The notes beneath the pieces were generated by a model, which did no database searches, was not told where the DNA came from, and saw only the letters and a list, made by a program, of their open reading frames with translations. A stretch of DNA of 64,000 nt, taken from contig OZ020526.1 of the NCBI GenBank assembly GCA_963971425.1, forward strand, positions 20,019,111 through 20,083,110, written 5' to 3'. Every line of letters begins with the position of its first letter. The stretch's first letter is position 1. Positions 8,884 through 64,000 of the stretch are shown here, piece after piece. Source of the stretch: Bryoerythrophyllum caledonicum (lineage: Eukaryota > Streptophyta > Bryopsida > Pottiales > Pottiaceae). The translations under genes were made by a program, and so were the position numbers.

Positions 8884-9270
8884 GGCTGCCGAATGCGAGA
8901 GCAAGTGCGTGCTCTCGACAATGAGCACCTGAAAAAGAGAGTCTTCGTCGAACTGCAACTGCTTTCAAGCCGCGCCCCAACCCTAATTCCTCGTTAGGTC
9001 ACGTCTCGGTCAACCTCCAAATCTAGCGCATTTCTAGATGAAGACACTCTTCGAATGTCCTCATCCAAACACTCGGCATTTTGGGTTTGACGAGATTCTG
9101 AGCTTGTTTTTGTTAGTGAGACCTCCAGAAGGGTTGGTTGTTAGGGAGAGATTCTGTGTGTTGTTTTATGATTTGTTTTTGGCCTTCTTTCGAGATTGTT
9201 TTGAGGTGACTAGGGTTTGTCATCGGAGAGAGCTTCTGGTCGTCATTTTCGAGCATTAGGGTTGGCAGCG
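8884..9270. promoter_or_regulatory. Shared divergent promoter region of RPS3A and TMEM208 homologue
   Basis: Only 387 bp separate the two start codons, so both 5' UTRs and core promoters must fit here. AACCCTAA lies at about 8,979-8,986, which is TTAGGGTT read toward RPS3A, and TTAGGGTT lies at about 9,256-9,263 just before the TMEM208 start. Such telo-box-like motifs are typical of plant translation genes. The regulatory role is inferred. Confidence 0.6.
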
Positions 9271-9795
9271 ATGGCGAACAAGGGCGCGAAGAAGCGGAAG
9301 GAAGAGAATGAGAAGCACATGGCGTTTCTGCGCACGCTAATCTTGGCCTCCACGGTGATCCACATCGCGCTCCGCTTCGGGCTGCGGTTCCGGAGCCTGA
9401 CGTGGTTCCACGGCGCGATGCTGTGCTTCACGTCCGCGCTCTATAAGCTGGTGTACGACCAGCTGGCGGGCATGGCGCGCCCCGAGGTGGACGCGGCCAC
9501 GGGCGAGATCGTGGACGGCGGCTTCGACATGAAGACGGGCGGGCTGTGCGGCTACATGCACGACCTGCTCTATATCACCAGCTTCCTGCAGCTGGCGTCC
9601 GTGGCGTCGGACCGCTTCTGGTTGCTGTACCTCGTCATCCCGGCCTTCGGCGTGTACAAGGCGTGGCCCTGGGTCTACGCCGCGTTTCTCAAGCCGTCGG
9701 ACCCCGAGGGCCCCGTGGACGAGCGCGAGCGGAAGCGCTTGGAGAAGGCCGAGCGCCGAGCCAATCGCCCCAAGTTCGGCAAAGCTCGCAGATGA
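9271..9795 (+). CDS. TMEM208 / SND2-type ER membrane protein
   Basis: Small endoplasmic reticulum membrane protein of 174 residues, the size usual for the family; yeast and animal relatives act in SRP-independent targeting of membrane proteins to the ER. Start chosen at ATG 9,271 (MANKGAKKRKEENEKHM), because the basic N-terminus followed by hydrophobic segments is the family pattern. Hydrophobic stretches lie at roughly residues 20-65 (FLRTLILASTVIHIALRFG, then AMLCFTSALYKLVY) and 105-140 (LLYITSFLQLA, WLLYLVIPAFGVYKAWPWVY). The C-terminus is charged (RERKRLEKAERRANRPKFGKA). It is a single open frame without an intron and is clearly more GC-rich than its neighbours. It is divergent from RPS3A. 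Confidence 0.93.
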   Translation: MANKGAKKRKEENEKHMAFLRTLILASTVIHIALRFGLRFRSLTWFHGAMLCFTSALYKLVYDQLAGMARPEVDAATGEIVDGGFDMKTGGLCGYMHDLLYITSFLQLASVASDRFWLLYLVIPAFGVYKAWPWVYAAFLKPSDPEGPVDERERKRLEKAERRANRPKFGKARR

Positions 9796-13679: not shown

Positions 13680-16250
13680 GGAAGTGTTCTATGCTCTAGC
13701 TTGTGCAAGACTGGACCGTCTTCCTACACATCGCTAATATACTTGGGCCCTATCTGGTTCTTCATCTGTTGCTAAATTAGACATTGTCGATGCGGAGCCA
13801 TTCATCAATGTGAGGTAAGCCGTTGCATGCCATTCCAGAATTGACTTCCTGTCACGGTTCCCATGCCACCTGGAACTAGTCAAATCCTCCTCTGAAGGAC
13901 TTGGATTGCAATATAGACCATCCGCATCCAAGTTTGTGTTGCCGGCCCGATGAACAACCTCAAAGTCATACTCTTGAAGCAGCAAAGCCCACCTGGGGAG
14001 CTTGCTAGTAAGCTTGTCATACTCCATGAGCCACTTCAAAGGTTGATGGTCGATCACCAACGTAAAACGTTATGCATACAAATAGGGTCTAAAATGGGCT
14101 ATGGCCCAAACCGCAGCCAAGGCCTCGTCCTCATAGGACAAATAGTTGGACTCTGCGTTGTTGTTGCTTCTCGAAGCAAACGCTACAAGGTACTCCCGTC
14201 CCTCATCATCCTTCTAAATGAACACAACCCCGAATTCCATAGCACTCCGATCTGTGTGCAACTGAAAAGATCGTGTAGCACCCAGACGCCATAATATAGG
14301 CGCTGAACCAAGCTTCAACTTTAAAGTAGCAAACGCCTGCTGCATCTCCTGTCCCCGAGTCCATGGTTGATCCTTTCCAGTGAAAATAGTCAATGGTTTA
14401 GCAATCAAGCTAAAGTTCTTGGCAAACCGACTGTAGTAATCCGCCAAGCCAAGAAAAGCTTAAAGCCGTGACACGTCGGTTGGGACACAAATCTGTTGCA
14501 ACGCATCCACCTCCTCCTGCTGTACGCCAAAACTCCCTGGAACAATCATATGTCCCACATATGGCAACCAATCGTGGAAGAACTTGCACTTGCCATGGTG
14601 CAAGCGCAATCCCCATTGCCGTAACCTCTCAAACACCGCCTCAAGATGCCTCACATGCTTGTGTAGGGTGCTACTAAAAATGATAAGATCATCAATGTAG
14701 CATTGCGCAAACGGTAAACCGGTCAATACCTGGTCCATCATCCTTTGAAACTCAGCAGGTATGTTCTTGAGGCTAAATGGGAGAAACTTCCAATCATAGA
14801 ATTGATCTCTCCCATTCTGATCAACTCCCCAAAATGCAGTCTTCACTCGGTCATCCACCATCAATGGTAACTGGTAGTAACCAGACCGCAAGTCTAGGGA
14901 ACTAAATACTCTAGCCTAGCCCACCGAGTCAAACAACTCCTCTAGCCTGGGCATGGGATACCAGTCTAGCTGGGTCTTGCGATTGACCGGTCTAGAATCC
15001 CCACACATCGGCTTCTCCGTCTACTTGCCAAAGATATCCTTCTTTGATGGCATAATTGTGGCACAAGTTTACTCGCCGTTAAAAAGCTCAATCAAGTTGG
15101 CCGCCAATAGCTCTGGACAACGAGTTTGAACCCCAACTTTCTGTGAAAGACTAATCTTGTATAGTCATTTGAAGATCAGGTGGTTGTCTTCCGATTGGAT
15201 GTGAATGGGCTTGCCTATGTAGCCCTCCAAATCGTGCAGATTAAAGGCAAAACAACTACGATACGAACGTATGAACGCTCGTATCCTTTGTGCCTCGGCA
15301 TCGGTAAGATGTGGCCCCAAATCCAAAGGCCAATCATCAAATCCGTGGTCTCCTTCTCCACCATAGAAGACTCACTACATACCGGCATGGCCGGTGATTG
15401 CTACTTGGTAGCAAAGAGGGCACTGATGCCTCCAAACTCCTCACTCACGGGATCCATTGAAAATCCCATGTCGTGAAGATAAAATTGGGCAAAGATATTT
15501 CGGGCATCGTCTCGACCAAAGTCCTCGGCCAAGGCTGCAAAGACACGCTGAGCACAAAGCTCCTCAGTTGCATGCCTCTTCAAACAAAAAAACAACTCCG
15601 CTTCTCGATCCCTGTGAGATGTGGCATCGTGGCCCCCTGACCTTCAAATTCTGCCCCTAGCACGCGTGGATGGTCATTCAAACGGCGTTGAACAACAAAA
15701 TAGAGGCGACAAATCAAAATGAGGGTGTTGAGGTCTATGGCTTGACCCAACAAATAGCGACGTTGGCCTTTAGAGTTGTGGTGCGGCGGTGATGCCTGTC
15801 AAAAAGTCCATTGCCCGCTCCCTCTCTTAGTAGAAGGCTCCTCGTAAGTTTGAGAAGAAGAATCTCAAACCATGCCCGGACCACGTGTCCTAAAGGCAAA
15901 AGATCCCGGGTAGCACATTAACGTGGGAAATGCCCCCCAAATGAAACCAACGTTGTTGACCACGGCCAATGGTGGCTCATCGTCCTTGGTAAGCTCCGTG
16001 GAAACAGGGTGGTCGTCCAAGATGTCATTCACTTCACGACGCACGGGCCGTGGCACTTGAGCAAGTGCAGAGGTGAGCGTCACCGATGATGCCATATTGG
16101 TACAAATCCAACGTGGCTGATGGGCGTAAGAGCCCAACACCGCGGCATCAACAAACATGGAGGGACCAAAAAGGTGATGGATGTATGCCCCATCCTCACG
16201 CACCTTTGTCCGTGTATCCCCCAATCATCAATAGAAGTACATTCTCAAAA
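13680..16250 (-). mobile_element. Ty3/Gypsy LTR-retrotransposon fossil, copy A
   Basis: A broken pol region on the minus strand. Reverse transcriptase lies at about 14,460-14,900 (YYQLPLMVDDRVKTAFWG, then the YIDD box), the RNase H connection at about 14,200-14,450, and the RNase H end at about 13,730-14,060 (DHQPLKWLMEYDKL, EVVHRAGNTN). Upstream material at 15.1-16.2 kb is shared with copy B at 22.6-25.3 kb. No LTR pair is seen, and it carries several breaks, so it is an old copy. At its right it abuts the plus-strand HPEKP repeat. Confidence 0.85.
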
Positions 16251-47345: not shown

Positions 47346-47362
47346 TCCACAAACGGAGCGAA

Positions 47363-47420
47363 GCTATTTTGTGAGCAGAAAGCGGTGAGCGGTGAGCGGT
47401 GAGCAGAAAAGTTAGGGTTT
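47363..47420 (+). repeat. Left inverted repeat of candidate 16.5-kb element
   Basis: GCTATTTTGTGAGCAG, followed by three GCGGTGA units, then GAGCAGAAAAGTTAGGG. Its reverse complement is found at 63,770-63,853 with small gaps. Confidence 0.7.
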
Positions 47421-48155
47421 TTGGTAGGATTTTTCTTAAAATACATGGATATTAGTATCAAGAATATGCTGATGTACATTAAAATAAGAAGTTTGACTAT
47501 TTTGGGTTCATAATTTGGTCAGTATCGTGGAAAATGTATGAACCTATAACCGTGTAAAAGGAGATTGGTAAAAACTTTGGCTTCATGTTGTGGAAGAATA
47601 TATGAGCCTATAACCGTGGAAATGAATATATTTTTAATCAGTTACAGACATAAGGAATGAAAGAAATTATATATTTCGCCCAAATGTACTTAAATCATGC
47701 ATGTTTTAAATACTTAAAGACTATATTTTTTAACATTGTACGATCAAAAATATAATTGTTCCAATATAAAGTTGAAGTTTAGGCCATGTTGTTCCCACTC
47801 ACAAAACAGAAATATGCAATGCGGGGAAGATTGCATATATGATGAACTTAACTTTATGTTTACAACCTAATTCTTCCTTACCTCGATAGTATTAGAAGTG
47901 CAGACTAGAATTTGGGAACATATAGAATGAAATCAATGGTAGATACAAAAGAACTATTTATCTAATCAGGTTTAGGGTTAAATCATACATCATTTTTGGT
48001 TTTTCATAAGAAGGATGATACTTTGTAAGAGAATATTGGTGATGATAATAATACAGTAGGGGAGACGTATGTACGACAAGTATTACACGGTGGCCCTTTC
48101 CGTCTCACCGCCATTTCAGTTAGAAAAGGAATAAGAAGTACAGTAGAACAATTTG
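47421..48155. other. AT-rich subterminal DNA of the candidate element
   Basis: No gene. A short (about 41-bp) phrase around 'gtggaa..tatgagcctataaccgtg' is repeated near 47,525 and 47,590. The transposase 3' UTR must lie at the right edge. Confidence 0.4.
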
Positions 48156-51100
48156 TCACACTGTTTTTACAGTGTGACAGTGTGGTAGCAGGTTTTCTAA
48201 CACGCGTTTGATCTCGTTGTAGCTGAAACTAGGTGCGTGGATAAACTGATCTACTTCAGGAAGCAGATTACAAAGCCGGGTAAAAACATAATACATATGT
48301 TTGCAATTTACCCATTGACCACGCTTACCTAATGACTTTGCTGCCATATCCTTAAAGAAAGGACAATCACAACTTGAAAATTGACCGACAGTGATGAGAT
48401 ACTGGGATGATTTGGATCCTAGACGAGACTCAAATGATACAATTGAACCTAGTGCTGGAGAAGGGAGCAGGGTGGCTTTCAGAACTTTACCATTTATTGA
48501 AAGCGCTGATGCGTAGCTGTTGGAATGCTTCGTTGTTGGTGCCTTGGAGTTGCGTCGAATGTTCTTCCCAAATCTGTGCTTTGGATACTCGTCTGGGAAA
48601 ATTGGTGCCGGGAAGTCATCAAAATTGATGAGACCATTGAAATCAGAGAACAACTGGTGCGGTGCAAAGGCCGGTCGTTCAGCCAAGCGAAATCCAGCAT
48701 GTTCAAGAGCAAACACTTCTTCTTGTGTAAGATTAGTACCAAGCTTTACGGGCCAAATCTCTGGCACAGGCGGTTTAGCAACAACCCACTTGCGCCTAGT
48801 GCCCTTCACACAACGCTCAATATCATCATTGCAAAAGAAAAACTGCATTTGCTCTACCTTGTTTTTCTTGTATGACGTCATCATGCCTGTGTAAGTAGGA
48901 GCAGCAGTAGCTTTGTTGTACTGAACTATTTTCGCCACGCATTTTCTTTTTGTGATAGCATGTTGTGCAAAACATGCTTTCGCTGAGGTCTTCGTAAGTC
49001 GTGCTATATGCCACTCCATCTCATTACAAGATGTCTCAAGGACTGTGTTCGTATGATATGGAATTGGGACGGTTGTTGTTGGCTCTTCATGTGGACTACT
49101 CTGCACTTCAGGTGGATTCAGTTGTACGGCAGGGGCAGTCACCTCTTCTGAAGTAAGATCGACAATGGTGGCGTGGGCACCATAGCGTGTTCTCTTCATG
49201 GGTCGAGAGACACTAATTTTGTCAGGGCGATGTGAGTCAAACTCTGATCCTATGGGAATATCTGCCTTCCGCTTTACAGAGAAGAAAACCTCTTCGCCTT
49301 CCAAGTGTGGCTCTCTAGTGCAAAATTCCGAAGCGCCTCTCATCTCTTCTAACGCCGCATGCAACTTCTTTGGATCTCCGGAGCTTTTTGCATTACGTTG
49401 GGCAAGTCGAAGACGAAGATCTTCCTTACTAGGTCCTGTGCCTGCACGCTCGCCTTTGGAGAACTGATAGTATGCTAGAACTTGCGTAAATGCTCGGACA
49501 TAATCATCCACCGTTGCTACGTAGAGATCATTTCCTCGTTTTCCGGATTGTTGAAGCCACTTGTTGTGCACCGTCTCAGCAAGATTGCAGGAAGGCATTT
49601 CCACAAGTTCCTCCTCCGTTAGATCCTGACAAATGGACCAAAATGTTAGCCAGAAAATCACCGTACCGATAACAACTCAATTTTAAAAAAAAAACAAATG
49701 TGCAAAGAAGACATCACTTACAAGCTCAAGAAATCCACCCCATTGGCGGTAACGAAAGTGCCAAAACGCTAGCCACAGGTCGAGGCAAAGAACACCTTCT
49801 TCGGTTGTAGCGCCTGATGACAACCACCATGACCGGATGGCAAGGTACTTCCTCTCTGCATCTTCCAGCGAATCAGCATTCTTGTACTGTTTACATAGAG
49901 AGCGGTGCTGCTCTTGTAGGTCGGGTCGAATATCGGCTTTTGTATGCTTCTCCAGAGATTGCGTCCAGTGAAATAGACACGTGCGTTCACGATTTTCCAT
50001 TGGGGTCTTTGCATCACCGGAGCCGTAGATGATCCTCACTGCATTCCAATTAGCTTGGGCACTGTCCGCCATAAATCCTTTAAACTGAGGTTCCAGAATG
50101 CCATGTCGTTCTGCAACGACATTCAAGTTCTTCCAAAATACAAGTTGGGCCTCAACATCCTCAGATTGCATGTCACAAACAGCTATGGTCATGACACGAC
50201 AATATGATGAGTCGTACACATGACAAGCCATCGTGGTCCAACCCTTCACACGCTTGACATGATCAAACATCATCCATGATTTGCACAAATCTCCATCAAA
50301 TTGAATTCGTCTAATAAGGTCAACACCACTCCCCGGGCCAACTTCAGACATCTTGAAAACAAATACCTTATCTGATTGAGAACCTTGTCCAGGGAACATG
50401 TTATTTTGCAGGTACGCCCATTTGCTGGATCCTCTGAGCTTCGTAATACTGTCCATGACTCCATAGCGCGTGAGGTACCGAAATGATGTGACTTGGTTGC
50501 GTAGATTTGGAGATGTCAAGTTCTTGCAAGTCTCAAGGACGGGCAACAACTCCTCAGATGATAGACTTTTCTCAGGCGCACTTTCAGGATTAAGCAGAAT
50601 AGACGCTACGAAGTCCTTGCCGGCCTCTAAAATAATAGCTGAATTTGTGGCATTAGGTGTTCTTTCCACCTGGTCACTCAGTAGGGTCGTAAGACGCTCC
50701 ACAGACTCCCTGTCTACACCCTTCTTGATTGGATGCTTGTGATGACCAATATGGACACATGCACGAGACATCGGACGGGGACTTAAAATGTAGTAAATCT
50801 TGGCTGAACAAACGTTCAAACAAGTAGGAGGAGTCTGACAGATTTTGCAGGCGATTGAAGAATTCTTGGGAGGATTCGAGCCAATTTCAAATCGTAAATA
50901 CGATGATCCATCCCACTCGGTCTCATTCGCGGGAGTTGGCCTATGAATTCTATCAAGGTACGCACACTTGTTATTGACACACTACAGGTGCCCAAGACAA
51001 GATGAAATTCTAAATGACAGACCCATGTCATTCTGAATGTGGGTTGTGACAGTACGAGTCCATGCATGACCGTCATGACGTTTGTCCATGCCTTGTAATA

Positions 51101-51851
51101 GCTTGGCTTGTGACTGCGAAGACAACATTGAAGCTGGAGGCAAAACAAAAACGAGATCTCCATCAAAGCTCGAAGGCAAGCAATCCACGGTAGAAATCGG
51201 GACCTTTGAAAAATCAACCCTCGACAACATGGACTTTGACCCCTTTCTGGCACCTAGGTTCCTTATACAATCTACTATGGAAGTTGGAAGGGATCTAGAT
51301 GGTAGATGTGGAGGTTTCACATGAAGGGGTCGATTGTCAAGAGAGGTATCACGTACTGGAGAATCTACATTGACAAGAGATGGAGTAGAATCTTGTTTCT
51401 CTAGGTTAACGAGAACAGGGGTGTCTGTATCTGAGTCATCACTCAAAATGTGAATTGTTTTAGAACTCGGCTCAACTTTGATTGTCCGAGGACTACTATC
51501 CTGTTGGTTGCTTGTAATAGAGACACGAGATGCCAACATTTGGCTGGATGAACTATGCGTATTATCTCTAACGCTGTACACTTTAAAAGTTCCACACTTG
51601 AGTAGCCAGGATTTCCCTTCGTTAGAAATGACGGCTTCCTGACCTATGGTGTGAGTAACAACTCCGGACTCTAAATCACGTACTTCTTCATCAACATAAA
51701 GTGAAGCTTCCAGTAAATGGAATCTAGAAGAAAGTCGACTCGCACTAACAGAGCAATGACCATTGAAAGACACACGGAACGTAATCGGGATTTCTTGACC
51801 ATCACCATGAATCACAACTGTGCCTAGACTACCTACATCAGCAGACAACAT
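48156..51851 (-). CDS. Mutator-like (MULE) transposase with SWIM zinc finger
   Basis: Two large exons, 49,722-51,851 and 48,156-49,625, with donor GTAAGT and acceptor TGTCAG keeping frame (FLEL/DLTEEEL). Start ATG at 51,851 (MLSADVGSLG). The N-terminal 270 residues are Ser-rich with an acidic tract, then a Cys-rich DNA-binding-like part (CVNNKCAYLDRIHRP, CKICQTPPTC). The central MULE region is WMMFDHVKRVKGWTTMACH, KGFMADSAQANWNAVRIIY, CLFHWTQSLEKHTKAD and WLAFWHFRYRQWGG, with FDH and MADS as likely first and second catalytic Asp regions. The second exon ends with a SWIM finger, CDC...19 residues...CKH, near 48,310-48,370. A TAG follows GHL at about 50,985, inside the N-terminal Cys-rich part, so this copy is probably inactive unless spliced around it. 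It is divergent from the methyltransferase-side exons. Confidence 0.85.
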
Positions 51852-52525
51852 CACGAAAAGTTTTAGAAGTTCAAGTATGAAATGAGAGAGTTAAAACAAG
51901 CGACCTAATTAGATTTATACTTCAAAATAATTAGTTATTATATTTTGTCAAATTATGGATGAAAAGCATGACAAAGAGTATGACATAAATTTGGGCAAGT
52001 CTAGATCCGTTTTATGCGTCGCGCTAGACATAATGGAGACTGACAATGTTCAAAATGATGGCGTTCTTGACATAAAAAACATCCCCGATCTACTTGACCA
52101 CAAAATAGATAAATTCCCAGTTGGAAATTGAAATGAGTGAGGTATTTTTAGTGTAAATCAGCGTGTAGTAGTCGAACTTTGGAATGTACATTTATGCACT
52201 AAAGTTATTAGTAAGCATGTAAGGTTGGCTAAGCGCGCTTCCAATAATCTCAACAAAATATATAAAATAGTGGTAGTGCATGTAATTTAAGTCTCACCAG
52301 GTCATAAAGGTTGTGCTTATTAAAAATTTCTTATTATGAATACTGATAAATGACAGCGGGTGACAGCTAAATAGCTATGATAAGCTTTGACAAAATTTAC
52401 ACTATTGAAATAATGAAGTGTATTGTCGAGATTGGAATAATGTTGATTTTCATGAGCAACATCTTCAATTCACGAATTGCTGAATTTGATAAGTTGAGTG
52501 AGATGGGAAATCTGGCATATCTCAG
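51852..52525. promoter_or_regulatory. Intergenic region between divergent element genes
   Basis: 674 bp, AT-rich, between the transposase start and the first plus-strand exon candidate. No specific site recognised; a shared promoter is inferred from geometry only. Confidence 0.35.
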
Positions 52526-53036
52526 ATGACTAGGAAGTGTAGCTTCCAATCTCTTGTTCCATCGTGTGAGAAGAAGAGGAGGCGTAGAAAGCGAGGTATT
52601 TTGTTTTCAAGTCGTAAGGAGTTGCTGAGATCTAGGATGGGAAAGCGAAAGACATTTTGTAATCAGTTGGACATTTCCGAAACCGCAAAGGTGTTGTCCT
52701 TCAACTCCACCGAGCGTGATAGTGATTGTTCTCTTCAAAACATTGAAGAGAATGAAGGAGAGTCATTGTCTCAGGTATTGGTAATAGCGTTGTTGAAAAT
52801 ATTCGACCAGTAGGGTCGGTTACATGCTAGCCCCAAAGTTGTCTTTGATTTTCTTCTCAAATGTTACTCCATGCTTTGTACGTGTGTACTCTGTGATATC
52901 GAAGTACTTTAAGCCTATCTATTGAACTACTTTCGCGTGGGTTTGTCAGGCAAAAGTTGCGGAAGGAAGCGAAGCACAATGCCACGATATATCGGGTAGT
53001 ATATCATCTCCACAATCAAGGCCTTCGAGAGAAGAG
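52526..53036 (+). CDS. Two-exon basic ORF, possible 5' part of the ParB-methyltransferase gene
   Basis: Exon 52,526-52,774 starts ATG (MTRKCSFQSLVPSCEKKRRR) with a nuclear-localisation-like KKRRRRKRG and ends at donor GTATTGG. The next exon, 52,950-53,036, follows TTTGTCAG and keeps frame (AKVAEGSEAQCHDISGSISS), ending at GTTAGC. Both are phase 0, like the exons of the downstream gene. Whether they join it, or are a separate small gene, cannot be decided from sequence. The family is not recognised. Confidence 0.45.
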
Positions 53037-54328
53037 GTTAGCTTTCGCTATTCATACTCAAGTCAGCTATATTTTTTCGTCACATTCATAACTAATATAG
53101 CATGGCCCTTATCTCAGTACATCGATTTCCTAAAATACGTAAATGAAATAGTATTGATCATAGATACTCATCTGCATGATTGACCTGGGTCACAAGTTTA
53201 AGTTGACCTTTCACAGTGAAGCAAGTGTGTGTTTGTTTTTGAATCCTGAAAAGTCCTTATTCTATCAAGGTCCCAAATGCCATCTTCTCAAAGATATTGA
53301 ATTGAGTCGTATTTGTTGTACAAATAAAATGACACCATTCATGCTTCAAAATTCCTCATACTTTAGGAGATATTCACGGTCAAAGTTTGAAAACACTGTT
53401 AGGGCATGCTGAAATCTGCCCAGAACTGCGGTATATGCTCAATTATTCTCAAAATCTGCCCAAAATCAATTAGATCGCAGTAACTTCAAAAATTCACCAA
53501 AAATTGAGATTTTATTTTTTTTCGAATTTTGTTTTTCGTACATGTAAAAGAGGTAGTAAAGCATGATCTCACCGTTTGGATTTTCAATCGGATAATTTTT
53601 TACATGCCTTTTTAATTGTTGAAAATGGGCATTTGTATTTGTATTTCAGCATACCTCCATGTGAAAAATGAAGCATTTCTTTAGGTTTTATAGGTCCTAT
53701 GAGGGTAAAAATTATATGGACATATTCCTTACTCACATAGGAACAAGAATTTGAAGAGCCTCATGTCAAATTTCCTTTCAAAATTGGTTTTTTTGGCCCC
53801 TAAAACATTAGTTTTCCATTCTACAGCGAGGAAAAAATCTTTTTTTTCAACTTTGAACATTATGATCTCCCAAATGGAGGGGAATTTGAATCTAAGATTC
53901 GGTATGCATGTACATGTACAAGTTAGGTACTAGATCTTACGGTTACATACTCGAAAATTTGTCAAAAGTTAAAAATTTTCAACTTGCATTGAAAGAGGGC
54001 AGTTTTGAGGGTTTTTGGCAGTTTTGAGGGCTTTCGACTTTAGGGGTTAAGTTGGACGGCCATCTCAACATGTTGGGCTGTTCATATTCTTTGTGTGAAC
54101 GAATGAGGATGGATGATTTTTCTCCACGATGATAGTTCGGTTTAGGGTAAACGTCTCTCCACGCCCAGGAATGCTTATCTCCGAAGACAGCTTCCTGACC
54201 CCTTCTCTTCGCCTCTTGTACTCACATACCGAAATGTGATTGCAGTGAAGGTCTCTTGGTGAAGGTCTCTGTGCAAGTTCTTACGCAATCTGTGGGTGTG
54301 GTAGGTATCGGGAGGCACGAGCAAGGAA
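53037..54328. other. Unassigned DNA inside the candidate element
   Basis: AT-rich, with short open frames of low quality. Repeated phrases 'aaaatctgccca' near 53,410-53,465 and 'ggcagttttgagggttt' near 53,998-54,030 are seen. No gene recognised. Confidence 0.4.
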
Positions 54329-54364
54329 ATGGCTGCACCAATAGTACCGTCACCAAGCGTGGAG
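54329..54364 (+). CDS. Candidate first coding exon (MAAPIVPSPSVE)
   Basis: ATG in context GGAAATGGC, 12 codons, then donor GTATGA. Phase 0, so it could open the gene that continues at 58,181. It is an alternative start to the exons at 52.5 kb. Confidence 0.35.
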
Positions 54365-54607
54365 GTATGAGAACTGACCTTTATTTGAGCTTGCTTGGGG
54401 TTGGGGTTTAACGTATGCAGAAAAACTGTAGAAATCTTCGCACCCTATGTTGCGTTTATCAGCTCGATACCGAGTGACTTCGTTGGATTCAATACCTGAA
54501 TCGCTCTCGTAACATACCCTAACTCAAACTTCTAGAAATATATTCGACGTATTACAAACTTTTGGGGCATGATGCGAGTTGAATATAAAATGTGCGAGCT
54601 GCCTCGA

Positions 54608-54705
54608 CTAGTCCAACCGCCGCAACGTCTTGGCGATGAGCTTCTGCGCGAGCGCGTGAAGCCGCTCCTCAATCTCGTTCCCGTAGGACCTAGCTTCCCG
54701 AACCC
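54608..54705 (-). CDS. Possible terminal exon on the minus strand (hypothetical)
   Basis: Acceptor CTCCAG, then a helical, charged C-terminus (GNEIEERLHALAQKLIAK, then TLRRLD and TAG). Upstream at 54,727-54,912 another open minus frame (ALLPVGIEAPETALLHG) could be the previous exon. It may be a gene fragment carried by the element. Not recognised. Confidence 0.3.
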
Positions 54706-55019
54706 CTGGAGAAAGTTTAGGTAGCACTACACAGGCACTCGGATCCGCAGGGAGGGCTTCGGAGTGATGCTAGTGGGAGAAACGCGGGGCGCTCCCGGTG
54801 CGTCGCGCTCTGGATAGCTAGGATCTGCTCCGTGTAGAAGAGCCGTCTCTGGAGCCTCGATCCCGACGGGAAGGAGTGCCGTCGCTGGAGCGTAGATTTT
54901 GTCAACGTGCACGAATCAGTTTCTCTAACTGATTCGTTTGTGCGAGGACCTTCCCTGTGATCGACTGACGGTACTCTGAGCCTGCGGTACTGTGAGTAAA
55001 CATCAGTCCCAACATGAGT

Positions 55020-57950
55020 ACCGTAAATGGGAATTAATGCCAAGTTAGGAATATTGAGCTAGGTAAACATTTTGGCCCGACATGAGCTGGTCTTGGTCGG
55101 AAGGAGACCTCGTGCACGAGGCCTCCTATTGAACTGTCCCGGTTACTGTGTCGATCCTGTCTCGATTATGAATCTCGGTGATTGTCTCGGTTGCTGTCTT
55201 GTTGTGGATGGAGAACAATAGCCGCGAAGGAACCCCGAATGAACCGTCACCTGTGAATGAACTTAGTAGGCAGTGAATTTCTTGAACTTGTAATGATGGA
55301 GTATCAGATCCTGGACCATTCGAGTATCAGAAATTTCATAAATGAAATCATTTGAGTTTCAGAACCTGGACCATTCGAGTATCAGAAATGGAAGCTGATA
55401 ATACAACGAACCATTCGAACCTGGACACAAGTTGCAGCACACTGGAGGACTCTCATGCGCATGAGGGCGACTGAACTCATGAAACTTATGATTCTTGTCG
55501 CCGAATAATCTGGCCCGACATGTGTAGAAGAAGGTTGGAAGGAGACCTCGTGTACGAGGCCTCCCAATGCACTGTTCCGACTACCTCCTCAGTTGTCCCG
55601 AATACCTCCTCAGTTACTCCCTCTCTCTCTATGCCTCTCCAACCGAATGATGGATATCTTAATTGTGACCATATATATAGACCTCCTTCACAGTCACCGG
55701 CATTGAACTGGATGGACACGGACTGTTTGAAACCAATGTATTCGGTGATGAGGTGCGGCATTGAACTGGATGGACACGGACTGGTTGAAACCGATGTATT
55801 CGGTGATGAGGTGCGGTAGGGTGGGCAGACGTCTACAACTTCGGTATGGTCTTCTGCGAGATTCTCACCCTCTCTCCCTCTATGTGAACGGCAGCTTCAG
55901 CTTCATATCGACAACACACTGCATCAGCTTTTTAGCTTCGGAATGGGGCCGAGCACTCATCAAAATGTTGGAGTATCTCCTTCCAATCCGCATGATCTAC
56001 ATAGAGGTGGACTCACAGGTGAGCAAATCATTTATCTTCTGACTTCAGAAATTTTGTGCTGAATCCACTCAATGCTTTTATGTGTGCGACTTTGTGGATG
56101 CACTATCATCATGTGCAGTTCATTCGTCATCCGCTTTGAAGACCTGTGAAGAAGCGGATGACGAAGATGTACTATCTTCATGTGCAGAATCATGAAGCGG
56201 ATGACGAAGATGCGTCCACTGATTGAATATTCTGGGCTGAATCATGAGCTGAATCATGAGCCGAATCATAAGCTATGATGAGCTGAATCATGAGCTCATT
56301 CATGAGCTGAATCAGGTCGGACAGAATTATGAACAAGGTAGCAAATGAAGGGCAAAGTTACAGAGACAAGCAGCAGCGCCTTCGCGGTCACCGAGTCGTT
56401 CTGGCTAATGATGAGGCGTAACAATATTATCACTATGATGAGCAGGTCATGCACACCGCCCACAACTAGCGTCGCGTGCGAAAGTTCACTGCTAGGCTAG
56501 CTCCGCGGATGCATGCACTGATGACTTTATTACAGCATAAGACCTTGCAGTATTTGCAGAACGAGCATGTTACATTTGCATAGCTGCAGCACGTACTTGT
56601 GGATGGAGGGAGACCTCGTGCACGAGGCCTCCCACTGCACTGTCCCGATTACTGTAAAGCAATTTCAGACTTCTTCTCCTCCTGTCCCGGCTACCCTGCT
56701 CTCCTCCTGTCCCGACTCCCAACTACGACCCCCTACTCCCGACTACCATCCTCTCATGTCTCTCATTTTTACTCCCACTCTCTCTATGCCTCTCCTTCAT
56801 GATTACAATCCTTACTGTGACCTTATCCATAGACCTAGGACTGCACTGTCACCGGCATTAGCCTGGAAAGACACGGACTGGTTGAGACCGATGTACTCAA
56901 TGATGAGCTGCGGTAGGGTCCCGATATTGGTGGATGAGTCCCAATCAATATCCCCTGTAGTTGTTCTTTCCGTCCCGACATGAGTCGAAGAAGTTCGATA
57001 GGAGACCTCGTGCACGAGGCCTCCTACTGCAGTGCCCCAATTGCTGCGTTCACATTTTGAAACTCCTTTCCTCTTGTCCCTACTACCTACCTCGACTACA
57101 TATCTCGACCACGCTGATTACGATTTACCGGTGTATTTCCACGAAGGGTGTTCTTCGGCAGAGGCCCTTGCCTGAACTCTTGGTGATAGTTGTTTGTGCA
57201 TGAGTCCCAATGCTGATCACCTGCAGTTGTTCGGGTTCACGACTCCCTAAACCGACCTCCATCTCCTTTCCCGAATACCTTCCGTCCTCTTGTCCCGACA
57301 TGACCTGGAAATGGTTAGAAGGAGACCTCGTGCACGAGGCCTCTTTCATGTTGGTGCATATTGGTGCATGAGTCCTGATATTGGTGGATGAGTCCAAGTG
57401 CTGATCCCCTGCAGTTGTTGCTCTTGTCCTGACATGACTCGAAGAAGGTCGTTAGGAGACCTCGTGGACGAGGCCTCCTACTGCTGTGTCCCGATGACTG
57501 TGTTCACATTTCGGACTTCCCCTCCTCTTGTCCTAAATACCTGTCCCGACTACCTGTTACGACGTCACTGATCACGGTTTGGAGGTTTACTACCTCGGAG
57601 GTTGATCCTCGGGCCGACTATCTGTTACGACTTCATTGATCACGGTTTACTGGATTACTACCTTGACGGTTGTTCCTCAGGAAAGGCCCTTGCCTGAACT
57701 TCTGGTGATAGTGATTGGTGCATGAGTACTGATGGTAATGTTGTTCCCATGACGTGTTGTCCGGTTGATCGGGGACGCAATTGTTCGGGATCGCGACGTT
57801 GACATGGTGTCGTTGGATTGGACTCTCGGCGAGCACCGTAAATGGGAATTCATTTTTAGTTAGGAATATTGAGCTGGGCAGCTCGAGGCAATTTATTTGG
57901 CTTTCCATATATCTCGAACGCTCTTATTTATACTAAGAGGAGGTCAATAT
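55020..57950. repeat. Diverged long repeat units carrying the palindromes
   Basis: Text such as 'cccgacatgactcgaagaaggt', 'actgcactgtcccgattactgt' and 'ctcctcttgtcccgactacc' recurs around the palindromes at about 55.1, 55.5, 56.6, 57.0 and 57.4 kb. 'ccgtaaatgggaatt' plus 'ttaggaatattgagct' occurs at about 55,022 and 57,836. A 58-bp unit beginning 'cattgaactggatggacacg' is duplicated at 55,701 and 55,759, with a diverged relative near 56,856. The units are too diverged for a precise period. Confidence 0.7.
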
Positions 57951-58551
57951 TGATGATGGACTGAAGCCTCGTGGGCGAGGGCTTATTTATTGCATTAAGT
58001 GTTCCTTGTTTAGCAGAATTGTCAACTACTAAATTATGGCAAGACAAACGCAGTTCATTAAATCATTGTGGAATTTGGCACCAGGAAGCAACTCAAAGTC
58101 CGAAAATTCAGTGGTAGGGAGTTCAAGAGTTGCCAAATTCTAAAGCCAATTCTCTCCGATATGTTTGCTAATTATTGCAGGATGATTTTGGCGAAGGGGG
58201 CAAAGCGGGCGAAGATCTTCGGGACAACATGTTGGAAAGTTTACCTATGGTGACTACTACACCAAGTAATGAGGTGAATTCGAAGCTCTGAAATTCTAGA
58301 ATGATTAATATTATCATGCTCAAATCTGTCAGAGCTAAATATTCATGTAGAAATTTTGAGTTATATCTTGTTCAGTAGTATTAGGTAGCTGCAGCAGTCC
58401 GATCACAAGTGACCTCGCATACGAGGCTTCTTAAATTCTTTCATCGTGGCTTGATTAGAGTGGCACTGCTAAGTTCATTCACTACCATCATGTAATTTTG
58501 CAATGTTGTATACCTGATTGTTCTAGCATTGAAGAGGCCTCGTACACGAGG
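55103..58551. promoter_or_regulatory. Cluster of nine palindromes CCTCG-N4-CGAGG upstream of and between early exons of the ParB-methyltransferase gene
   Basis: Sites at 55,108-55,121, 55,546-55,559, 56,614-56,627, 57,006-57,019, 57,326-57,339, 57,460-57,473, 57,967-57,980, 58,413-58,426 and 58,538-58,551. All nine have identical five-base arms. The centres are TGCA (four times), TGTA, TGGA, TGGG, CATA and TACA. Most have extended arms, GGAGA left and CCTCC right. The last three lie in flanks unlike those of the first six, so the arms stay conserved beyond the surrounding repeat. Seven lie before the exon at 58,181 and two in the intron after it. Binding by the ParB-like protein is a hypothesis. 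Confidence 0.75.
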
Positions 58552-61500
58552 CCTCTCTTAAAGATGACAAAGGTGATAATATACATAGTTCATGTATTTT
58601 GACTCTGGATATATGTTCATGTGGATGGTGGAATTTGGAATGGATATTATAACTTTCAATGATATTTTTACTAAATACTGTTTTGTTTGTTTGATATTAG
58701 GGAGAACAAGATGACACTCACGATGTCGATGATCATAATGACAATCCCCGTATTCAGGTTAGCCACTCCCTCTATTTCTTCCTAGCAGTATCTGGGATTT
58801 ATCATTCTTTGTGATATTTCTGCTAAGTTATCCATATTGCCTTTTGTAGAACGATCCTACTAGCGACTCTGAGGATTCGTCACCAAAGTGTCCGGATGGA
58901 TTGGTCAGTTCCTTCGAGGGCGAAAGAGCAAGACGACTTCATCAGAAGTCTAATTTCGTTACCGTTTTGGAGAGCATGCGCGTTACGAAGGGTCCTTTTT
59001 ATGTGCCACTTTGCAGGATGATTGCCCGTCCTCGAGTTCGGCCGATTCAAGAGATTGACGTGTGTGCGTTGCAGAAGAGATTTGAAGGCGGCTATATTGA
59101 TGGAGATCGTGCATTCTACATATCCATCTATGATGACAAAGAAATGACACGTGATGTTTCCCCTCATATACAGTCAACGTGGGACTCACATTGGATTGCA
59201 GCAAATGATAAGTTTGAGGAGATGTTGAGCTCTACTCCAGAGTTAGCTGCATTTAGTGGCAAAATGTTTTTTATTTGGGACGGAAATCATAGGTACAACG
59301 CGTGGTGGCGTTTCATTTCAGAACAGCATGGCAATGACCCAAATTGGCACTATGATGTCCAGTGTATCGTATTGAATCCGACAGGGCGGATATCCGTGTT
59401 ACTGAACTGTATGCACGATGTCAACTGGTACATACTCTAGCACTTATCCTTTCTCTTATGAAATCATTCACATCTTTTAAATTAGTTAGAGCTAACTAAA
59501 ACTTATTTTCTACGTGTGCCCATTTAGGTCAACATAGAACGACTTTGTGAAGACAAGCCTTCCTGCAAAACTCCAGCGTATACGATTTTACAGTGGCCTA
59601 AAGTTAGAAGATTTCAAGGATCTCTTGACAGCTGAGGAATTCAAGACGTGCATGAAAGTTCGGCAATCCTGTGCAGTATGGTTTCCATTAACAGTTGATG
59701 TTTTTATATTGTTCTTATATCGGGTAGGATTTAACACACGCTTTATATTTATAATTTATCAATTTGTAACCACGTTTGAGTTTGTTTTATTTACCAATAT
59801 TTTGAAACATGATTGTAGCAAGATATTTCTCGAGCTTCTGATGAAGCGGCCATTGAATACGAAAAGAGGACATCAGTGGCGGACAGAAGTGCTGAAGGAG
59901 TGTGGAAGGTCATGAGCGATGCTGCAGCCAACACCGTGAAGGCAATTAAGGGCAAGGACTTTCAAAAGTACCTTGCAGTCGCCAATCCCAAGAACGGCGA
60001 TGACTTCTTTAATGAGGTAAATAATAATGAACATAAATTGTTTGAAAAATAAATCATGACTAGAATTTATTAGAATCTTTTTTGTTGATGAATAGTGATA
60101 TAATTTGAACTTCATTACTTTTGGCAGATCAATTTTCATTTCAGTCATTTTAAAAAGACTGAAATGACCATTGAAAAGTTACAAAAGGTGGCAATGGCAG
60201 CAGTGGAGCCTCGTTTCAAAGCAAGGTGGTTGCATTTCTGGAACTCTCCAGCAATGGTGAGATCGGCATTCCGCTTTCCAGCTTCGCAAATCAAAGATGG
60301 CGCTCTTGATTCCTTTCTCAATCGTGCAACTTTTTGGGCCCAGGTATTGAGATTAATTATCAGTTTCTAATGACTTGTGTGATAGTTTTTGCATTTTGTT
60401 CGTTACGTATGAGTCCTGACTTTTCAAATTCATGATATCAACTGGAGGACAAATTTATTGCCCATTTTGACGAAATTTGTGCAACGGGCACATTTCAGTG
60501 AACTGGGACGCTTCCCCAAGTATTGAAAAGCCCTCCGAATACGTGGAAAAATGGCGCATGTTTTTATGGGAGAAGGCATATATGGTCATTGTGCATCCAG
60601 GGTTAAAACCACCATTTCAGAAAAATACAAAATTTGATGTGTTGCCTGGAGCTGACCTCGCCATCAAACGACTTCTATACAGGTATGTCTCTTGTGGTTA
60701 TCCTAGTTCATTGTTGTTTTAATATCTTATTATTCTAAGTCGCTCATTCAACTCAAATTTCTTCTCTTCAGGTACATTGTGAGAGAGCTGATACCTCAAA
60801 ACGCTCTCCAATAACCTTTGTGCCCTTCATTTCTGTCAACGTGGATTCAGCCTTCATCAGACTTGTGCATCTTTACCGAGCTTCAGAAGAAGAGGTATTC
60901 CACTCAAGTATTACACGGTGGTGGATGGTACTTGGAATGCTCTGCCAACTTTGTTCCAGATGCAGAGAAAGACCTCTTTAAAGGTCTTGTAGATTTTTCA
61001 GAACTTCCCACGTCAACAGCATTGGAAGAGCCAGAGGTTGAAATTGTGGAGCAGTCGTCATCCCCACCAGTTCTAGTCCAAGAAGAGACGTCGGGAAAGA
61101 AGAAGCGACTTTCGAAGGTTGAGAAGGAAAAGCTTATTAAAGATGCAGAGGTTGCGAAGAAGGCTGAGATAGATGCAGCAGTTGCAGCCGCCCTTGCTGA
61201 GAGAGATACACAGAATCTTTCTTTCATGCCAGATGCCACAGATATGCCTAGGAATGAGGTGCAAGCATGGAACTCTCCTCCAATAATGGCGTCCTCTCAA
61301 GCCGCAGGATCAAGCCATGTTGAAGTTATAAGGATGGAAGTGCAACAACGTAAGCAGCGCCAATTTCTATATTCTGAGTCATCCGTTGCTCCAGTGCCCG
61401 CTGTCTCATCAGAGTGTTTCATCAAAAACATATCACTATTTTCTACCATGCAGTCTCTTTCAGAGAGTGGAGGTCCACCGCAGCTTTGCGAGGAGCTGCA

Positions 61501-62882
61501 TCAATTTATTTCAAAGGTAAGACTATGTTATCCTTCTTGATTTTAATTTCTGTAGAATCACATTTCACAGCTGTTTTATAATCATTTGTTTTTTTGCTTC
61601 TAGGTTGGTGCAGGTAGATCGCGATCAGTTTCAAACGAAAATTGCAAACACAGCGGATTGGATCTTATAGTGGCTGACATTCCTGAGAGTTTGCCAGTTC
61701 TTGGGATTTCTCAATCCATTGATGTCATCCCTTCATGGAATTCGAGGCCTGAGAGTTATATAGATACGATTTTTGAGTTCGCTGACAACTATCTTCATGA
61801 CAACGCTGCGTTGCTTCTACTTCATCCAAATGATAGGGAATTACAACTTGAGATTGATGATTGTGCTTCTACATACGACTTCAAAGTCCTCATCGACTGG
61901 TGGGCTTTGAATGAGCTTCCACTAGCTTTGCCTCGAGATCCTTCTGCAACAGTAAGCTCTCTACATATTGTCTTCATAGTTCTGAGCTATAGTCTTGAAC
62001 ATCCCCTATGTCTATCTAATCCATAATATGTTGTATTGTTATTTCTCAGGGGACGCGTTTCTGTGTTCAGCTGTTTGTTCGTGACGCTCCCGTCGTCTCG
62101 TCATTCTCAGTTCGCTCTCCACTTCGAGAGCTCGACATCTTGTTCAATCCGGTGAACGTTGCATCACAGCTCATGCATGGCAACTCACCATGGCGGGGGG
62201 CTCGGGAGAAAGCGTTTGATCTCATGAAGACAGTTCTTGAATCCCTCACAGAAGTTGGGGATATTGTTTTAGATTGGAATGCCTCTACAGGTAAGCATTT
62301 ATTTTATATTATTGTATACTTAACTTTTTCATATAACTCACAATTTTTTTATCATTTCTAACGCTATGTATCTTATAGGACCAACTATTCGGGTGTGTCA
62401 ATCATTGGGCCGTCATGTATTGGCCTTTGAAGAAGACTCGGAGATTTTCCAAGCCTTGCTCGCACCACTAATTCCAAAGGCAAATGCGAAATTGGTAATG
62501 GAGAATAGGAAGAATGTGCGACGTACTCAAGGAGAACCACCACAGAAGAAGCAAAAAAGTAGTCGTATTCCTTCTTGTAAGTAAGTTCAACACATTCTTA
62601 TATTTTCATCGTTGTTAACTAAATATGTGTACGGTTTTATTTGAACCTTAAACCTCATTGTTTCTCTATTTCTTTTGCAGAGCTATGCCGTTACCTTTAT
62701 CTCCAGATTCTTCTTTTTCTCTCCCTATTTGGGCTCGAAGAACTGCAGAGATACAATCAACTATGAAATCTCCTCCCTCAACACGTCAGCGGCGGAGGTA
62801 TCACAAAGATGTTATCCGTTATATGGATACAGAGGCAGAGGTTGGTAATGGATGCGAGGGTAGTTCAGATGATACGGAGTAG
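58181..62882 (+). CDS. ParB-like domain fused to beta-class N4/N6 DNA methyltransferase-like domain
   Basis: Multi-exon plus-strand gene. Exons: 58,181-58,273 (DDFGEGGKAGEDL), 58,701-58,757, 58,850-59,427, about 59,530-59,675, 59,819-60,016, 60,128-60,343, about 60,440-60,682, 60,772-61,516, 61,604-61,951, 62,050-62,290, 62,379-62,576 and 62,683-62,882; most are phase 0. After an acidic lead comes a ParB-like fold (YVPLCRMIARPRVRPIQEID ... FFIWDGNHRYNAWW), then helical parts, a charged Lys/Ala helix (KVEKEKLIKDAEVAKKAEID), and a methyltransferase in permuted beta order: motif IV-like LDLIVADIPES, Y/W region, SPWRGAREKAFDLM, then motif I-like DIVLDWNASTG with LGRHVLAFEED. Tail basic (PPQKKQKSSR). 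The ParB-methylase pairing is known from bacteria and phages. In-frame TAG near 59,534, TAA near 60,811 and an apparent one-base shift near 60,500 suggest decay or unresolved splicing. The start is uncertain. Confidence 0.7.
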
Positions 62883-63809
62883 TTGTTTGGTGTATAAATT
62901 TTCATTTCTGATTCAGTTAGATCTTATTTGATAGTCCAAATAGGGTCTACCGAAGTTGGATATTGATCTTGTATTGGTTTTAATTGTTCCAGAACAATTT
63001 TATATTGAAACGTGTCCTTCAGTTTGTTTCCATCTTATTTGGTATTTGGATACATAAAAATGCTAAACCTGAATCAAATCTTTCAATTTACTTGAATTTA
63101 TAACTGCGTACGAATTTGTGAAATAGATATGTATTCTACTCTTCTAGCTAAGTATGCAATTCAAGGCTACACATAATTTGCAATGGCAAATCTTAAAAAT
63201 TGAAGTATTGGTTGTTATCCTACGGGACATCGAGTAATGAATTAGAATTTAGTACTACATAGAATGCAGGAGTGAATGATAGAATGTACAATGTATGACG
63301 CACGAAATATTGTTGGGACCCTAAATTGTACATTTTAAAATACATTCTAAGAAAATAAATGAGTTAATTTGTGATGAGCAAATAGATACATGACTTCTTA
63401 AATACAAAATATCAAAACTAAAAATGGGCAAATAAACCAAGAAAAGGTAGTTCTTGAAGACTTGTGTAATAATTGTACAATACATGTACAATCTTGAATT
63501 TGTAAACCCTAAACCCTAAACCCTAAATTCTAAGTTTCTAAATCAACGTTCAAATACAATATAGTCTCTAGTATATGCTAACACATCAAACTGTGGTTTT
63601 TCCTAATAATAAGACAGCGAGGCCTTTCATCCACGGCCATAGGTCATTTCATGAAATTATAATGATTCACCCTTATGTTTTAAACCAATGTTTCAATTAT
63701 AGTGTATAATAATCCATGGCCATAGATCCTCTCCTAAGCTAAAAACTATTTTTTAACCACATAAACTTAACCCTAAACTCACTTTTTTCTGCTCAAATCC
63801 ATTTTTTTT
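62883..63809. other. AT-rich right subterminal DNA with short telomeric tract
   Basis: No gene. 'aaaccctaaaccctaaaccctaaa' (CCCTAAA type) lies at about 63,504-63,527. Another 'accctaaactc' lies next to the right inverted repeat, mirroring 'gttagggtttt' beside the left one. Confidence 0.6.
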
Positions 63810-63853
63810 CTGCTCACTGCTCACCGCTCACCGCTCACTGCTCACAAAATAGC
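63810..63853 (-). repeat. Right inverted repeat of candidate 16.5-kb element
   Basis: On the minus strand it reads GCTATTTTGTGAGCAGTGAG, then GCGGTGA units and GAGCAGAAAA, matching 47,363-47,420. Confidence 0.7.
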
Positions 63854-63857
63854 ATTC

Positions 63858-64000
63858 CCCTCCACAAACCGCGCCCGCCCCTCCAAGTATGCGCCCGGCC
63901 CTTCACCGCACGCGCCCGGCCCACTCGCGATACGTGCGCGGTCCTCCCCACACGCGCCCGGCCCCCTCACGGTACGCACCTGGTCCTCCCTTGTACGCGC
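63858..64000 (-). repeat. 21-bp minisatellite, right array (runs off window)
   Basis: Units such as 'gcgcccggcccttcaccgcac', 21-bp period, C-rich on the plus strand. This is the L1-L3 minisatellite in reverse orientation; about six units are visible before the window ends. Confidence 0.85.

Follow-up and report, generated by a model that had tools for sequence, protein, structure and literature searches.

A two-gene moss transposon joining a ParB-like/methyltransferase gene to recurrent, clade-specific palindromes: a candidate self-targeting system

Several described systems come close to the one treated here. VANC of the Mutator-like VANDAL elements of Arabidopsis is the product of a transposon accessory gene: as reported, VANC21 binds arrays of the motif YAGTATTAY that the element encoding it carries in introns and non-coding regions (PMC5735166), arrays that evolve by tandem repetition and whose motifs differ between related elements (PMC5735166; PMC10398659). 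Encoding of a DNA-modifying enzyme by a DNA transposon, possibly with an anti-silencing role, is described for the TET/JBP dioxygenases of fungi (PMC12730594), a bacterial-type amino-methyltransferase in a eukaryote for N4CMT of bdelloid rotifers (PMC8885841), and the union of a ParB-CTPase fold, characterised by the Box II sequence GxxR, with an N6/N4 methyltransferase for fusion proteins of phages and prophages (PMC12704722). The present system lies in a 64,000-nucleotide stretch of the moss Bryoerythrophyllum caledonicum (positions 20,019,111 to 20,083,110 of OZ020526.1, assembly GCA_963971425.1), hereafter the window, which is the final 64 kb of a contig, C15, in an assembly of 437 Mb and 894 contigs. 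It contains an entire two-gene DNA transposon, in which a transposase-like gene comes first and a divergent gene for a ParB-like/methyltransferase protein second, with an array of nine copies of one palindrome beside and within the second gene.

As with VANC, a short motif is repeated in the non-coding regions and introns of the element that carries it and varies between relatives. By analogy, the ParB-like/methyltransferase protein would have VANC21's kind of role: an element-encoded, self-binding epigenetic (anti-silencing) factor, VANC-like in its self-targeting and built from different parts, a reading to which I give a probability of about one half. The parts differ indeed, in that the motif is an 18-bp palindrome instead of YAGTATTAY, and the protein of an intact copy (locus L041), once spliced, carries a ParB-like motif and a methyltransferase domain, without Pfam matches to the VANC domains DUF1985 or DUF287. 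The phage and prophage fusions have the same two domain types, if the ParB assignment holds, but the present protein has about 1,100 residues, is encoded by an intron-rich eukaryotic gene on a transposon and has altered catalytic motifs, and its ParB-like exon has no significant match in phages (two matches at E 6). The TET/JBP enzymes belong to another enzyme class, and I saw no paired palindrome array mentioned for their elements in PMC12730594; N4CMT, according to PMC8885841, lays an epigenetic mark in rotifer DNA, whereas the gene described here belongs to a mobile element. In searches of open-access literature I recognised no description of a ParB-methyltransferase transposon of this kind.

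The ends of the element were located by aligning the window with loci L039, L040, L041 and L042 (blastn of their right ends). Homology to L041 and L042 stops at 63860, and an inverted copy of the right end lies at 47360-47409. The element and its main parts are as follows.

47346..47354: target-site duplication, left copy, TCCACAAAC (from the sequence)
47355..63860: entire transposon, 16,506 bp, delimited by terminal inverted repeats and a 9-bp duplication
47355..47409, + strand: left terminal inverted repeat, GGAGCGAAGCTATTTTGTGAGC... (blastn of the L039-L042 right ends; sequence)
48156..51890, - strand: transposase-like gene, at least three open pieces, with a SWIM-like CxC-x19-CxH (open reading frames; homologous frames in L050; motif by eye)
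55104..58556: array of nine palindromes with a CCTCGTNNACGAGG core, at most one mismatch, starting at 55108, 55546, 56614, 57006, 57326, 57460, 57967, 58413 and 58538
63806..63860, - strand: right terminal inverted repeat, GGGGAATGCTATTTTGTGAGC... on this strand (L041/L042 homology stops here and the flanks differ)
63861..63869: target-site duplication, right copy, TCCACAAAC (from the sequence)

Both structural marks of Mutator-like elements (MULEs) are present: terminal inverted repeats of about 50 bp and a 9-bp target-site duplication, TCCACAAAC for the window element. The L041 element, on a different contig and about 14.4 kb long by arithmetic, has its own 9-bp word, GCATATGGG, flanking both ends. 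L041 and L042 are 99.9% identical across 9 kb, after which their flanks diverge abruptly, and the family has therefore moved recently. Inverted repeats could not be made out at the element ends of the L049 clade, and the window element matches no RNA family at the gathering threshold. A short TAAACCC repeat, of plant telomere type, occupies 63503-63527, just within the right end of the element and near the end of C15. A 404-residue open frame in L050 (465-1676, + strand) continues into the L041 element at its left end; this element has apparently inserted into another gene or element.

The first gene, whose homologues in the L041 element (L050) have long open frames, looks like a SWIM-type transposase. 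Since 9-bp duplications accompany this SWIM-like gene, a Mutator-like transposase is most likely, although Pfam gave no match for it, the MULE transposase domain included (three open frames of the window at E 0.1, two of L050 at E 5); SWIM fingers occur outside MULEs too. The transposon is probably Mutator-like. The transposase exon has at least 88 matches in the genome (88 scored among 4,283 candidates), and 38 of these places were compared with 41 of the 151 ParB-like exons found; a divergent ParB-like exon lies within 30 kb at 25 of the 38, a count on hand-picked rows that gives no unbiased rate. All ten listed transposase exons that are 100% (rounded) identical to that of the L041 element have a divergent ParB-like exon, 7.47 kb off. 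Twenty listed places, those ten included, reach 95% identity, and 17 of them have such an exon, 16 no more than 8.3 kb away and the last at 21.9 kb. For eight places at 83-85% identity there was no ParB-like exon among the 41 compared; in these copies the second gene may be very diverged or absent.

The second gene was delineated largely by tblastn with the L041 protein. Its coding exons in the window, all on the + strand, are the following.

58036..58113: predicted first coding exon, with ATG and GT donor (from sequence only)
58181..58273: predicted exon, AG/GT borders
58701..58757: predicted exon, AG/GT borders
58850..59427: ParB-like exon (WDGNHRYNAWW), conserved in the clades aligned
59528..59723: middle exon, with an in-frame stop at 59535 in this copy (tblastn)
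59819..60016: middle exon (tblastn; AG/GT borders)
60128..60343: middle exon with a conserved EMTxEKLQ stretch, also found in L055 (tblastn; AG/GT borders)
60442..60682: middle exon, its acceptor lost and its frame shifted in this copy (tblastn)
60772..61516: variable-linker exon, with an in-frame stop at 60812 in this copy (tblastn)
61604..61951: methyltransferase exon with the motif IV-like DLIVADIPE (tblastn; relatives aligned to CcrM)
62050..62290: methyltransferase exon with PWRGAREK and the motif I-like GDIVLDWNASTG (tblastn; PF01555 on spliced relatives)
62379..62576: methyltransferase exon with acidic residues (FEED) after motif I (tblastn)
62681..62882: last coding exon, open to the stop, with an acceptor AG (tblastn in L039 and L040 only)

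A preliminary description of this DNA, made from its letters, had proposed an intron-rich eukaryotic gene with at least ten introns at 58181..62882. The L041 copy bears this out, with 12 exons, 11 GT-AG introns and 1,099 residues without a stop; the end of the span holds as well, and the start moves, probably to near 58036. The exons of the L041 protein were found by tblastn in L042, L039, L040 and the window, its two short first exons in L042 only. L041 and L042 are intact copies. That of the window has decayed: its frame shifts near 60,490 and is interrupted by stops at 59535 and 60812, and a splice acceptor has been lost near 60,441. L039 has in-frame stops as well. At least 151 places in the genome match the ParB-like exon, a lower bound for which 150 of 1,752 first-look candidates were scored. 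The ratio of nonsynonymous to synonymous substitution rates (dN/dS) of this exon is 0.06-0.12 in the four close comparisons, of the window with L040, L012, L037 and L048, and the exon is under purifying selection there. At greater distance synonymous sites are saturated, and the two ratios still obtained are 0.38 (L043-L049) and 0.44 (L043-L055), with dS about 2. Because of this low dN/dS and the many genomic matches, the gene is beyond chance: the intron-rich gene is real. That it had spread on a transposon, as had been proposed, agrees with the element ends and duplication, the number of copies and the pairing with the transposase gene.

The repeated palindromes, absent from the preliminary description, were found in the follow-up. 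The pattern CCTCGTNNACGAGG, chosen after the palindromes had been seen, occurs with at most one mismatch nine times at 55108-58551 and nowhere else in the window, where 0.05 occurrences are expected. Of the nine, two fall within an early intron of the gene and the remaining seven upstream of it; across copies, conservation is 94% in the 14-bp core and 55-57% in the flanks. The full palindrome has 18 bp with a two-base centre, a form well suited to a DNA-binding dimer and poorly to an RNA hairpin. Scanning the loci for palindromes of any kind gave many unrelated chance palindromes, about as many as in shuffled sequence in most loci; the special feature is the recurrence of one palindrome sequence.

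That sequence varies by clade. L033, L034 and L037 have GGCCTCGTATACGAGGCC in the same place, with close variants in L035, L036, L038 and L048; L043 and L046 have GGCTTCGTNNACGAAGCC; the ATTCGGCACCGAAT type occurs at two sites in L044 and four in L047; L041 has GGCTTCGGCGCCGAAGCC and three variants; and L062 has five palindromes of the GGTCTCGGTGCCGAGACC type. When the half-sites of ten clade representatives, chosen by hand, were compared, three were like the window and, of the other seven, five were changed at the same positions in both arms; the arms of L045 and L049 differ by one position.

Genome-wide, the pattern GGCYTCGKNNMCGARGCC has 136 sites, and the same pattern reversed, as a control, has none. 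Fifty of the 136 sites were listed and their positions compared with 53 ParB-like exons on contigs C1-C3: 46 lie 0.3-3.2 kb upstream of a listed ParB-like exon and none downstream, where 8 kb on either side of the exons would be 0.6% of the sequence by chance. The other four are each found on the upstream side of a listed transposase, at a distance of 5.2-6.7 kb, and are therefore probably within element copies whose second gene was not in the compared list. The half-site follows the clade: GGCCTCGT goes with copies of 76-95% identity, GGCTTCGT with 70-74% and GGCTTCGG with 48-51%, the exceptions being two hybrid sites, beside an 83% and a 65% copy. A chance repeat was rejected as an explanation of the palindromes, given nine copies against 0.05 expected, 136 sites against none, their location upstream of ParB-like exons and their conserved core.

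The methyltransferase domain is, from profile and structure comparisons, confirmed as that of a beta-class N6/N4 amino-methyltransferase, as had been supposed. In the spliced L041 protein Pfam finds PF01555 alone up to E 1 (E 1.9e-4; 21.9 bits against a cut-off of 26.7). The same family matches the spliced methyltransferase parts of three out of three members (best 1.5e-8) and exceeds the curated cut-off in exons at eight genomic loci. Against solved structures, the methyltransferase profile matches DpnA at 7.7e-7 and CcrM at 6e-4; CcrM aligns across both halves, from motif IV, in register, through motif I (profile positions 18-227). Motif IV thus precedes motif I, the beta-class order, and the corresponding stretches of the window, DLIVADIPE and GDIVLDWNASTG, stand in the order first read from them. 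The profile also matches phage methyltransferase families. With the L049 methyltransferase, tblastn gave weak matches in 301 phage records, and the four examined among 30 listed are stand-alone enzymes of about 250 residues.

The N-terminal domain is called ParB-like by motif only, on the strength of DGNHR, because the profile comparisons were not significant. The DGNHRY core noticed earlier is present, as WDGNHRYNAWW; all 13 aligned exons conserve WDGNHR, whose D is replaced by E in L062, and GNHR, which fits the GxxR of Box II, is invariant in them and also present in L062. Among 12 ParB-like exons, Pfam gave DUF1015 in seven (best E 0.031), PHROGs a ParB-like family in two (best 0.025) and NCBIfam nothing relevant; no solved structure matched below E 0.15. 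With hhalign, four cyanobacterial ParB_N domains gave a probability of 9.6% over 21 columns at the DGNHR motif, and 12 DUF1015 proteins one of 0.3%. The ParB identity first given to this domain is therefore not established. Nor did a bacterial or phage origin, proposed along with it, receive support: four scans of viral contigs confirmed no relative, and none of the ParB-like exon, and the exon was without relative in plasmids (one match at E 1).

One relative came from another source. A genome-contig scan found 4.2 kb of a 4.7-kb contig filed as Synechococcales cyanobacterium (CADCWO010000058.1; L055) that encodes exons of the ParB-like/methyltransferase family, with 35% identity to the query in the ParB-like exon. 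Within 530 bp upstream of the ParB-like open frame, L055 has GGTCTCGGATCCGAGACC four times: two perfect copies, another with a single mismatch and a weak one. The breaks between its coding pieces match the family's intron positions, so that L055 is very probably eukaryotic transposon DNA binned by mistake. A true cyanobacterial gene was rejected as unlikely on account of these interruptions and because a profile hidden Markov model search of 386 genomes of that phylum matched this contig alone, the 385 other genomes having no relative of the ParB-like exon. In L055, the open frame that includes motif IV and the beginning of motif I ends at ASTG and has no PF01555 match up to E 5. The palindrome type of L055 occurs four times in the moss genome, once in L062, whose clade is about 41% identical to L041 over the ParB-like and next exons; that the two share it through sister proteins was not supported, with 34% identity against 36% for L055 and L041. 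The bin of L055 also contains a 444-residue frame (L059, 484-1815, - strand) in which ParB_N scores near the cut-off of 26.3 bits (28.2 in one search and 25.1 in another) and whose long C-terminal part matches no Pfam family.

How might these parts work together? For the predicted protein I infer binding and methylation as follows. It would bind the palindromes of its own element as a dimer; the ParB-like domain would let it spread from them or bridge them; the methyltransferase domain would modify or occupy element DNA; and the host silencing machinery would be kept off, so that both divergent genes stay active. Two features argue for an element-encoded reader: the palindrome keeps reappearing at a single location within one element family, and its two arms have mostly changed in step as the element's proteins diverged. 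Several observations weigh against the self-targeting factor proposed here. The similarity to ParB fold profiles is not significant; L045 has one clear site, TGTTTCGGCACCGAAGCA, and no array; and the five sites of L049, of a TGTTC...GAACA type, are all imperfect, two lying in introns. It could be the transposase that binds the palindromes, and correlation by clade cannot identify the reader because the palindromes and both genes travel together. The canonical beta-class motifs are a DPPY-type motif IV and an FxGxG motif I. The family departs from both, with D[I/V/Q]P[E/F] as motif IV and, as motif I, D-x-x-A-S-T-G, without the usual glycine pattern, so that the domain may not methylate.

The alternatives differ in which protein reads the palindromes and in what the second gene does. 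In maize MuDR, mudrB has the role of an integration helper. A protein of that sort here, with the palindromes read by the transposase or a host factor, is an unlikely arrangement: the second genes of other MULEs are described as serving other roles (PMC6446971), and palindromes between two genes could serve either, but the terminal inverted repeats of the window element, where a transposase would be expected to bind, have no palindrome, and the window sites, at 55-58.6 kb, adjoin the second gene and not that of the transposase. A gene captured as a passenger, with no role in the life cycle of the transposon, is very improbable. MULEs do tend, by the account of PMC6446971, to acquire fragments of host genes; this gene, however, is conserved across clades with the low dN/dS of close comparisons, is retained beside the transposase gene and is found with palindromes in another organism. 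More ambitious than the self-targeting factor is a eukaryotic counterpart of ParB-parS, which would load at the palindromes, slide or spread as a nucleotide-driven clamp and write a self-mark of N4-methylcytosine (4mC) or N6-methyladenine (6mA), by which the element would escape silencing based on 5-methylcytosine, site and protein co-evolving clade by clade; I regard it as quite unlikely.

Two further alternatives overlap with the self-targeting factor and turn on catalysis. In one, which I find rather unlikely, the domain has lost its activity and persists as a platform for binding DNA or sensing S-adenosylmethionine, and the protein acts as a sequence-specific adaptor without methylating. 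The aromatic position of motif IV is indeed E in three of the four members aligned and motif I reads ASTG, but L049 retains an aromatic residue (DQPF), and all four diverged members, one of them from another organism, share without variation ASTG, an acidic residue (E) further on and, in motif IV, the D and the P. In the other, the domain actively places 6mA or 4mC on the element, and this modification, not occupancy by the protein, controls transposition or protects from silencing. A beta-class N6/N4 domain and the report of 4mC as an epigenetic mark in bdelloid rotifers (PMC8885841) speak for such a mark, but the catalytic motifs are altered, and I hold it to be improbable.

Elsewhere in the window, a TMEM208/SND2 open frame lies at 9214-9795 (+ strand; PF05620, 2.4e-48) and is plant-like by eye, a piece of a tetratricopeptide-repeat gene at 3712-4650 (- strand; PF07719 and others), and a reverse transcriptase fragment, presumably of a retrotransposon, at 14460-14915 (- strand; PF00078).

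A many-copy, two-gene transposon in which a methyltransferase fused to a ParB-like domain is encoded near clade-specific palindromes suggests that a jumping gene marks or shields its own DNA. If this is true, a transposon would have invented self-targeted counter-silencing independently, from a bacterial-type modification enzyme. Because the palindromes are clade-specific, they provide ready pairs of matched and mismatched proteins and sites, with which one can test directly how transposons evade silencing without harm to the host. Sequence-specific tools for plant epigenome editing could also come from the system.

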